Source: a virus. Taken from it: a DNA stretch of 33,365 bases. Below, in pieces: positions 4,771-6,840 of this stretch. The position numbers and the translations under genes are program-made. Under the pieces are notes generated by a model that did not search any database, was not told the DNA's origin, and saw only the letters and a program-made list of their open reading frames with translations. Each line of letters begins with the position of its first letter. The stretch's first letter is position 1. The DNA is taken from IMG/VR virus record IMGVR_UViG_3300032087_000896, positions 1 to 33,365 of that record. The stretch is one strand, 5' to 3'.

Positions 4771-4880
4771 TGAAAAAGTTAAGTAAAAAACAAAAGAAGA
4801 TTGCAAAAATGGGTGGCAACAAAAAGAAAATAGATGCTGCTGATTTTAGAAAATTAAGACGGAAAAGAAAGAAAAAATGA
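4770..4880 (+). CDS. Lys/Arg-rich peptide, 36 aa
   Basis: The product (MKKLSKKQKKIAKMGGNKKK, then IDAADFRKLRRKRKKK) is about half basic. A short IDAADFRKL stretch is less biased and reads like a genuine helix, which supports coding. The start overlaps the previous stop by one base and the stop overlaps the next start (ATGA). It therefore sits in a tightly coupled chain of basic mini-genes. No family is assigned. Confidence 0.5.
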   Translation: MKKLSKKQKKIAKMGGNKKKIDAADFRKLRRKRKKK

Positions 4881-5047
4881 AAAAAGGTTATCATAAAACA
4901 AAATCAGGTCGTAAAGCTAAAAAAGGTTTGTATTACAACATCAACCAAAAGCGTAAGCGAGGTGGTAAAATGAGAAAACCTGGAAGTAAAGGCGCTCCAA
5001 CTGCTAAAGCTTTTAGACGTGCAGCTAAGACTGCTAAGAAAAAATAA
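4877..5047 (+). CDS. Basic conserved small protein, 56 aa
   Basis: The product contains KSGRKAKKGLYYNINQKRKR, then MRKPGSKGAPTAKAFRRAAKT. The GLYxNIxxKR and RKPGSKGAPTxKAF blocks are a pattern I recognise from many pelagiphage and cyanophage small proteins of unknown function. It is the last gene of the late operon before the attachment region. An internal ATG at the MRKPGSKG block could give a shorter product. High charge suggests contact with nucleic acid, by inference only. Confidence 0.65.
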   Translation: MKKGYHKTKSGRKAKKGLYYNINQKRKRGGKMRKPGSKGAPTAKAFRRAAKTAKKK

Positions 5048-5050
5048 CAA

Positions 5051-5078
5051 TTGATTATCCTATATAGTCTGGTATTAT
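5051..5078 (+). promoter_or_regulatory. Putative sigma70-type promoter upstream of the tRNA-like attP core
   Basis: TTGATT at 5051-5056 and TATTAT at 5073-5078 are separated by 16 bases. The expected start would be near 5085, about 40 bases before the tRNA-Met-like sequence. If integration rebuilds the host tRNA using the phage-borne 5' half, this phage promoter would drive it. The boxes are short and the region is AT-rich, so chance is possible. Confidence 0.4.
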
Positions 5079-5100
5079 TTTGGTAATTGAGATTTGTTGA

Positions 5101-5121
5101 TGAACCAAATCTGAACCAAAT
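5101..5121 (+). repeat. Tandem TGAACC repeat pair, left of attP core
   Basis: TGAACCAAAT occurs at 5101-5110 and again at 5112-5121, exactly 11 bases apart, about one helical turn. A similar pair lies on the other side of the core at 5297-5317. Repeats of this size on both sides of an attachment core are the normal form of arm-type integrase or excisionase binding sites. Confidence 0.55.
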
Positions 5122-5127
5122 GGTCTT

Positions 5128-5167
5128 GGCGGGGTAGCTCAGTTGGTTAGAGCGCAGGACTCATAAT
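5128..5167 (+). other. attP core: 5' half of a tRNA-Met(CAU) gene
   Basis: The 40 bases fold as the 5' part of an elongator tRNA-Met. They supply the acceptor 5' strand GGCGGGG (5128-5134), TA, the D-arm GCTC...GAGC (5137-5153), the 5' anticodon stem CAGGA (5155-5159) and the loop CTCATAA with anticodon CAT at 5162-5164. Homology stops there: the 3' anticodon stem would need TCCTG, but the window has TTGGA. There is no T-arm. A half tRNA next to a tyrosine integrase is the standard signature of an attP site, here targeting the host tRNA-Met. The phage carries the 5' half, so an integrated prophage would rebuild the tRNA at the boundary on its lysis-gene side. Confidence 0.85.
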
Positions 5168-5296
5168 TGGACTAAGGTTTCATTAATCAACAAGTTTCAG
5201 TTGTTAATACTAACTAAACAACGGATAAATGAAACTGCAAATTGTTATAATAAATCTTATAAAATATGAACATTGGAACATTTGTAAATTAACAAA

Positions 5297-5317
5297 TGAA
5301 CCAGATTTGAACCAGTT
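5297..5317 (+). repeat. Tandem TGAACC repeat pair, right of attP core
   Basis: TGAACCAGAT at 5297-5306 and TGAACCAGTT at 5308-5317 repeat with the same 11-base period as the pair at 5101-5121. They lie about 130 bases right of the tRNA-like core and overlap the -35 box of the probable integrase promoter. Integrase or excisionase bound here could also repress its own operon. Confidence 0.5.
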
Positions 5318-5374: not shown

Positions 5375-5605
5375 ATGTCAAAAGACAATCTAAAAACAGT
5401 AAGCTCAATTGCAGCATTGTTTGATTTAATGCTGGACAAATCAAAACCAGAACAAAGAGAAGCTAGTGTAAAATATCGAAAAAGATATTTTGAAACCATT
5501 CCAGGAATTACATTTCCTGATGACTGGGACCAGCTTTCAATAGAAGAAAAAGAAAAAAGATTAGATAAAGCTCAAGCATTTGGACTAGATAAGGACCAAA
5601 AATGA
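5375..5605 (+). CDS. Small protein co-transcribed with integrase; candidate excisionase, 76 aa
   Basis: The protein is charged and mostly helical (SIAALFDLMLDKSKPEQREA, then KYRKRYFETIPGITFPDDW and LSIEEKEKRLDKA). Its stop overlaps the integrase start by four bases (ATGA), so the two are translated together. Excisionases (recombination directionality factors) are often this size and are coded beside the integrase. I cannot identify a winged-helix or MerR-like motif with confidence, so that role is a positional guess. A regulator of the GTTTCA array is an equally good reading. Confidence 0.6.
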   Translation: MSKDNLKTVSSIAALFDLMLDKSKPEQREASVKYRKRYFETIPGITFPDDWDQLSIEEKEKRLDKAQAFGLDKDQK

Positions 5606-6840
5606 GTGATCTAAGAATTGTACCAAAAAGAAATCGATATGTTATTCAAGACTTTGATAACAATCGAAAACAAATTGGACGGCCATATCAAACTAAATTT
5701 GCCGCCAACCAACAACTCAATAAACTTGTAGCTGATATTGCAACAAACAAAGTTGTTATCTCTGATCGATTTAGATTGAGAGATTTATTTCAGCTATTTG
5801 CCAAACAAAGATTACTTGATGCAGAAACTGGAGGTAATCTAACAAAAGAAGGTGTTAGAAGATACGATGCTTTCTGGCGTAAATATCTCCACAATACTAT
5901 GCCTGAGTTATTTCTGGACCAACTTAGAAATAAACACATAGAGAAATTGATCAAGGATCTTTATTCAAAACATAACCTACCATATAGAACTGTCTGGAAT
6001 ATCATAGCATCTGTAAAAACTTTTTTGCGTTGGTGTATTTCAAAAGATTATATCTTTAATACTCCAGTGTTGGAATTTACCTGGACTAACTACAGGCATT
6101 TACAGCCTAAAGATACAGACAAAGAACCTACAACTCTTATATCTCAAGAGCAATGCCAGGAATTAATTTACAATTTAATTGATAACAAAAATAAAGATTA
6201 TTTATCTAGTTATAAATTAATGCTGTTTGCCTCATTTGCTTTTACTGGTTTAAGAATGACGGAGCTTTTAGGTTTACAGCATCAACACATAGATTTAGAT
6301 AATCAATTGATCCATGTTCAAGGTCGTTATAATTACAGAGAAGGTTACTTTGTACAAAAGACTAAGAATAGAGGATCCACTAGAGCTATTGATATAGTTG
6401 ATGATTTCTTGCCGTTGTTAAAATGGTGGATGTTTATCAATAAAGATCATCCAAGCAATTATCTATTTCCAGCAACAAGAGGCACTGGGCCTATATCAGA
6501 ATACAGAGCTAGAAGATTGATATGGCAAACTTACGAAGAGAATAACTTAGCTGTTATTAAATGGTCTAAAAAATCTGGATCCGTTTCTTATAAAGTTATT
6601 AGTTCTCCATTTAAAGGATGTCCAACTAAGACTTACAGACATTACGTTGCCACATCATTAATCAATGCTATGTCTTCAGATCCAATGCTAAACAAAAATA
6701 ATGTCAAGAACGCTCTTGGCCATGACTTGTTTAGAACTACTGAAGAAATCTACGGAAATCATGCTGCTGCTTTACCTACAAATCAAAGAAAGCTTGTAAG
6801 GCAGTCTATCGGCAAAGCTATTAACCTTAAAATTAATTAG
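5602..6840 (+). CDS. int: Tyrosine recombinase (phage integrase), 412 aa
   Basis: This enzyme should catalyse site-specific integration at the tRNA-Met-like attP core. Residues 1-50 look like an arm-binding domain (VPKRNRYVIQDFDNNRKQIG). Residues 55-165 form the SAM-like core-binding domain (FRLRDLFQLFAKQ to FLRWCISK). The catalytic domain follows from about 178. Visible active-site residues are Arg218 (TGLRMTELL), Lys253 or Lys255 (QKTKNRGS), Arg346 and His347 (TYRHYVAT), His374 (LGHD) and the nucleophile Tyr384 (IYGNH). The His usually three residues before the second Arg is Lys343 here. The length is typical. The gene converges with the leftward early operon. Confidence 0.93.
   Translation: MSDLRIVPKRNRYVIQDFDNNRKQIGRPYQTKFAANQQLNKLVADIATNKVVISDRFRLRDLFQLFAKQRLLDAETGGNLTKEGVRRYDAFWRKYLHNTMPELFLDQLRNKHIEKLIKDLYSKHNLPYRTVWNIIASVKTFLRWCISKDYIFNTPVLEFTWTNYRHLQPKDTDKEPTTLISQEQCQELIYNLIDNKNKDYLSSYKLMLFASFAFTGLRMTELLGLQHQHIDLDNQLIHVQGRYNYREGYFVQKTKNRGSTRAIDIVDDFLPLLKWWMFINKDHPSNYLFPATRGTGPISEYRARRLIWQTYEENNLAVIKWSKKSGSVSYKVISSPFKGCPTKTYRHYVATSLINAMSSDPMLNKNNVKNALGHDLFRTTEEIYGNHAAALPTNQRKLVRQSIGKAINLKIN

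Follow-up and report, generated by a model that had tools for sequence, protein, structure and literature searches.

The locus described here raises the question of whose DNA drives a host tRNA gene once a phage that carries the 5′ half of this gene has integrated into it. We analysed a stretch of 33,365 nt (positions 1 to 33,365 of the IMG/VR record IMGVR_UViG_3300032087_000896), referred to below as the window, and all plain coordinates refer to it. The explanation that we favour, with a probability of roughly 0.85, is that the locus is the attP of a temperate HTVC010P-type pelagiphage, that the 5′ half of an elongator tRNA-Met gene comes from the phage and is completed by the host, and that in the lysogen this tRNA would be read from phage DNA.

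The phage and the layout of its attachment site

HTVC010P-type phages are counted among the most abundant marine viruses. The TerL protein encoded in the window is 77% identical to that of HTVC028P (MW273921) and 58-61% identical to those of other HTVC010P-type phages, and on this ground the window phage is placed in the HTVC010P-type group. Judged by its sequence, it is a temperate pelagiphage of this type (Ubiqueviridae), with HTVC028P as the nearest isolate. Its portal protein matches PF12236, and the gene order (late genes, attP, integrase, reverse-strand early genes) is common to the window phage and HTVC028P. The region around the attachment site contains the following features.

4877..5047, + strand: final late-operon gene, basic product of 56 aa (ORF list; PHROG 16028, unknown function)
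5051..5078, + strand: putative promoter TTGATT-16-TATTAT, its -10 box preceded by TG (motif search)
5102..5118, + strand: P-side arm-type integrase sites, GAACCA-N5-GAACCA (predicted from sequence)
5128..5166, + strand: attP core, nt 1-39 of tRNA-Met(CAU) (39/39 identity)
5176..5236, + strand: stem-loop just 3′ of the core (RNA fold z -2.4)
5298..5314, + strand: P′-side arm-type sites, GAACCA-N5-GAACCA (predicted from sequence)
5375..5605, + strand: 76-aa ORF overlapping the integrase start (ATGA), without family match (ORF list)
5602..6840, + strand: tyrosine integrase, 412 aa (Pfam PF00589, E 2.8e-12; PHROG 1)

The gene at 4877..5047 immediately precedes the P arm and would become the neighbour of the rebuilt tRNA after integration; in the two lysogens described below (G002 and G001), the complete tRNA comes after late genes of this family. 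Residues R218, R346, H374 and Y384 of the integrase are invariant in the family alignment, and the 76-aa ORF overlapping its start is possibly an excision factor.

The P arm sites begin 26 bases before the core, and the P′ sites are found at +170 to +171 from it, in the window as well as in two related contigs (L011 and L016). Among the relatives the spacing of the arm sites is similar, and in the two nearest it is nearly exact. The variant of the arm site (GAACCA, GTACCA, GCACCA or ACACCA) switches together on the P and P′ sides among relatives, as would be expected of sites bound by one integrase. Stems like that at 5176-5236 were seen in most relatives. After integration this stem-loop would follow the orphan tRNA half and precede the integrase gene, and it is possible that it attenuates transcription into the latter.

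The core as the 5′ half of a tRNA-Met gene

The sequence-only reading of this DNA had described the attP as carrying the 5′ half of tRNA-Met(CAU) and ending right after the anticodon loop, and both statements hold. Positions 5128-5166 agree with nt 1-39 of SAR11 tRNA-Met(CAU) at 39 of 39 bases (blastn E 1.7e-15 in a library of 48 SAR11 tRNAs), next to the arm sites and the adjoining integrase. This stretch spans the acceptor 5′ strand, the D arm, and the anticodon 5′ strand and loop; with one extra base in the D-loop, it corresponds to standard positions 1-38, and the match runs to the very end of the anticodon loop. At 5167 the phage has T; G occupies that place in every SAR11 tRNA-Met read. 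In the host tRNAs (L069-L098) this G faces A31, which makes an unusual stem end. At its other side, identity to the host begins exactly at tRNA base 1, and the preceding 10 bases have no host match. The presence of the half-tRNA in attP is real and far beyond chance. Neither a complete tRNA nor the 3′ half of tRNA-Met was found when sought in the window. The same 40-mer occurs in nine further contigs, none of which has the complete tRNA, and the Met core follows host alleles, being of the GCGCAGG form in the window and of the GCGCGGG form in L011; hosts have both. The same Met 5′ half is also present in a cluster of near-identical contigs (L002-L009), whose integrase is only about 34% identical to that of the window.

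There are three types of CAU tRNA in SAR11 (GGCGGGG, CGCGGGG and GGGCCTG). We take the GGCGGGG tRNA to be the elongator Met by elimination, on the basis of identity elements; the CGCGGGG tRNA is presumably of the initiator type, and the GGGCCTG tRNA has C4/C5 features which we associate with Ile2.

When the junctions were modelled, the window up to 5166 joined to host nt 40 onward gave a complete tRNA-Met, and the other junction (attL) gave none. In the mechanism that we propose, the tyrosine integrase would recombine within the anticodon loop of the host elongator tRNA-Met gene, with the phage supplying tRNA nt 1-39 together with the DNA upstream, and the host supplying the 3′ half. After integration, the sole complete tRNA-Met would be located at the late-gene end of the prophage and its transcript would start in phage DNA. 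The host tRNA promoter would be left facing an orphan 5′ half, followed by the integrase gene.

It could also be argued that the half-tRNA has nothing to do with integration and is either a relic or a decoy acting as regulatory RNA; a function of a tRNA 5′ fragment as RNA is possible in principle. This idea is scarcely credible: it was rejected because of the arm sites and the lysogens presented in the next section, and the adjoining integrase and the sharp end at the anticodon loop contradict it as well.

Natural lysogens with the 5′-half design

The attP anatomy and the geometry of both prophage ends were observed in two lysogens of the same integrase family, one at tRNA-Asn and one at tRNA-Asp, attL and attR lying in each case on separate contigs of an incomplete single-cell genome. 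In AG-905-E11 (G002; Asn ends at loci L015 and L060), one contig contains valS, tRNA-Cys, an orphan 5′ half of tRNA-Asn and the integrase, and another contains late genes homologous to those of the window, the P arm, a complete tRNA-Asn and a host regulator gene. The empty Asn site is seen in SAG-MED28, with tRNA-Cys and tRNA-Asn adjoining. SAG-MED28 (G001; Asp ends at loci L014 and L189) is itself a lysogen, in which the integrase end consists of tRNA-Val, an orphan 5′ half of tRNA-Asp and the integrase, and the other end of late genes, GCACCA arm sites, a complete tRNA-Asp and host nuo genes. In this genome the two 5′ halves differ by one base, with GTTTGG in the orphan host copy and GTTGG in the complete gene; therefore, the 5′ half of the functional tRNA-Asp is that of the phage. 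Since the orphan half adjoins the integrase and the complete tRNA lies past the late genes, the old promoter cannot reach the complete tRNA. From the anatomy of these lysogens it follows that the tRNA transcript must start in phage DNA.

Further orphan 5′ halves adjoining integrases were found in G070, G216, G333, G542 and G833. Complete, divergent copies of tRNA-Asp, possibly spare ones, were noticed near or inside prophages in G001 (L121) and G333 (L171:4605-4681).

We infer that the window phage does likewise at tRNA-Met. The expectation of the sequence-only reading that the functional tRNA of a lysogen lies behind phage DNA is borne out by the lysogens at tRNA-Asn and tRNA-Asp (G002 and G001), which have the complete tRNA downstream and the 5′ fragment upstream; a search with the integrase alignment through three overlapping sets of about 400 SAR11 genomes yielded no lysogen at tRNA-Met from the subclade of the window phage itself.

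Candidate promoters upstream of the core

The promoter TTGATT-16-TATTAT, to which transcription of the tRNA had been ascribed, fared less well. The motif is present at 5051-5078, yet it is expected by chance in such an AT-rich region: it is one of 6 sites of this kind in 1.7 kb, where shuffles give 5.2 ± 2.3, and the candidate scored a shuffle p of 0.44 in a model trained on SAR11 tRNA genes. Taken as a group, the P arms (12 distinct) exceed shuffles in this host tRNA promoter model (P = 0.046); the value for the P′ side is P = 0.79. The group signal comes mainly from the Asn lineages, Met and Asp alone giving P = 0.20. The best site in Asn-type phages ends 17-22 bases short of tRNA base 1, and TGnTATTAT is present at a similar place in L016. 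In an extended -10 test the group mean was also above shuffles (P = 0.003); this test was set aside, as its motif had been chosen by inspecting the very sequences tested, and the host-trained model was preferred.

We propose that a promoter within the 80 bases before the core would drive the tRNA once the phage is integrated, and the integrase gene while it is free. The host tRNA promoter would at the same time be placed toward the integrase gene by the lysogen geometry, as in switching of the ICEKp1 type.

An alternative that is compatible with our preferred explanation, and differs from it in what the promoter is for, assumes that the upstream promoter is there to express the integrase while the phage is free and circular, and that tRNA expression is a by-product of the crossover position. 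Because core and integrase share one strand, any promoter ahead of the core is directed at the integrase in the free phage. For ICEKp1, the abstract of a report states that transcription of the integrase gene comes from a promoter at the opposite end in the excised element and from the host tRNA promoter in the integrated one (PMC13023037), and in the archaeal pTN3 the tRNA is read from the integrase promoter (PMC8371274). On the other hand, the spacing of the best site in Asn-type phages is as for a tRNA gene's own promoter, and the window has a second candidate nearer the integrase, TTGAAC-18-TATATT from 5307. We would give this alternative somewhat less than even odds.

The complete tRNA might also be expressed via read-through from the late operon, with no dedicated promoter. 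The late genes end at 5047 and have the orientation of the core, the intervening stretch showed no terminator-like site on that strand, and the promoter candidate of the window is not above chance. However, late genes should be silent in a lysogen, which would nonetheless need the tRNA constantly, and the P arms of the integrase family hold some promoter signal. On balance, read-through seems unlikely, and transcription from a promoter in the P arm remains our preferred reading.

tRNA-Met in SAR11 genomes and in a sister clade

The tRNA-Met 5′ half was matched once in 170 and twice in ten of the 180 matching SAR11 genomes on which this count rests, the 217 genomes without a match, which may be incomplete or diverged, being uninformative. 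The suggestion that SAR11-like cells may have the elongator tRNA-Met in one copy is in keeping with this count. The ten genomes with two matches comprise seven with a truncated and a complete copy, two with two complete copies, and the lysogen G345; no window-type lysogen was found among all 10. G125, one of the other nine (small islands or two complete copies), also holds a phage.

In several SAR11 loci (L159, L162, L165, L166 and L168), islands of about 1.5-3.8 kb occupy tRNA-Met; their upstream copy is cut at about nt 62, and the downstream copy is complete and has its own tRNA-type promoter. These islands are a second, different 5′-type element at tRNA-Met. Phage arm sites (ACCATATACGTACCA) directly before tRNA-Met were found in two genomes (L191 and L192, about 1480-1601). 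The late or phage genes tested for in these loci were absent, and a host-type promoter lies further up; at most, they are possible scars of lost prophages.

Rebuilding of the tRNA on the integrase side, which had been named as an outcome that would refute the proposal, does occur in the sister Met clade. G125 follows the usual design, on a single contig: the tRNA-Met next to the integrase is complete, and the far end has just the 3′ half. In G345 and G717 the tRNA-Met is complete at both ends, and the 5′ half of the late-gene-side copy is of a different allele. At these late-gene-side junctions (L161:2381-2457 and L185) the tRNA-Met is chimeric, with an A-C mismatch in the anticodon stem and a phage 5′ half of the other allele. 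By analogy, integration of the window phage could yield a complete tRNA beside the integrase, or at both ends, with the host promoter still driving it. This is very improbable, as integrase-side rebuilding needs a 3′ half in attP; the window is devoid of one, and the modelled attL is without tRNA.

Attachment sites across the integrase family

Scans revealed related integrases in 42 viral contigs and several SAR11 genomes. A tRNA stretch starting from exactly base 1 (Met, Asp or Asn) is present in 37 of the 38 phage attPs with enough upstream sequence, a count that includes many near-copies as well as two members (L023 and L029) with complete tRNA-Asp. The exception, L040, has neither tRNA half, and its upstream region (L040:1-600) contains only about 8 bases of the tRNA-Asp anticodon loop. 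The attP of the isolate HTVC028P has nt 1-38 of tRNA-Asn ahead of the integrase. In the complete tRNA-Asp sequences within attP (L029:1953-2029 and L023:3406-3482), the anticodon stem contains mismatches (ATCGC against GCAGG). On the tree the 5′-half label changes at least three times; the long branches of L174 and L176 leave the deep order, hence the direction of change, unsure.

It looks as if 3′-half (G125), whole (G345, G717, L023 and L029) and 5′-half (most members) attPs exist at the same crossover point. As a tentative scenario, which we think may well be wrong, the attP of one family could have shifted at one crossover site among 3′ half, whole tRNA and 5′ half, the whole-tRNA state serving as a bridge by which an essential single-copy tRNA moved from the host to a phage promoter, so that the left end of the prophage became indispensable to the cell.

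Significance and relation to known systems

If integration moves a single-copy SAR11 tRNA onto phage DNA, losing the left end of the prophage would mean losing the tRNA, and the phage sequence would set the supply of that tRNA. HTVC028P, whose host is HTCC1062, is an isolate with such a design, which makes the idea directly testable. The family also offers a rare series of attachment sites with 3′ half, whole tRNA and 5′ half at seemingly one crossover point.

What appears to be new is a phage lineage with the 5′-half design at several tRNAs, its natural lysogens, and the mixed attP states in one integrase family, part of which may already have been reported in the original papers on the isolates. 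HTVC028P likewise has a 5′-half attP before the integrase, but its target is tRNA-Asn and that of the window phage tRNA-Met, and the two integrases are 29% identical. No description of the HTVC028P attP as a 5′ half was found in the literature searched, and the original papers on this isolate may contain one.

Attachment sites with a 5′-half tRNA are known but rare. The statement of the sequence-only reading that the 3′ end is usually carried agrees with the Islander collection, in which 3760 islands are of that kind and 159 of 3919 have a 5′ tDNA fragment (PMC4383910). The attPs of this 5′ class likewise contain the tRNA 5′ end, though the class is given there as a count and not as a trait of a phage lineage. 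The features of a 5′-tDNA attP of a tyrosine integrase, namely an adjoining tyrosine recombinase and a tRNA fragment from base 1, are both found in the window.

For the pTN3-like integrases of Thermococcales, attB is the 5′ half of a tRNA, and the rebuilt tRNA is expressed from element DNA, a situation seldom met in bacteria according to the same review (PMC8371274). Those elements are archaeal and their integrase gene is split on integration, whereas the integrase of the window stays whole: the core at 5128-5166 lies 435 bases outside the gene, so splitting of the pTN3 type does not apply. In ICEKp1, as far as the abstract goes, the host tRNA promoter faces the integrase in the integrated state and another promoter does so in the free one; the element takes the tRNA-asn promoter for int, and dependence of the tRNA on the element is not mentioned in that abstract (PMC13023037). 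In tRNA-dependent lysogeny, described for Fionnbharth and others, the lysogen relies on the phage for an essential tRNA; there, the tRNA gene of the phage is complete and separate, and the att sites have no more than about 10 bp in common (PMC10865867). In contrast, the window phage has no tRNA gene, its shared core measures 39 bases, and it provides half a gene that is completed by the host.
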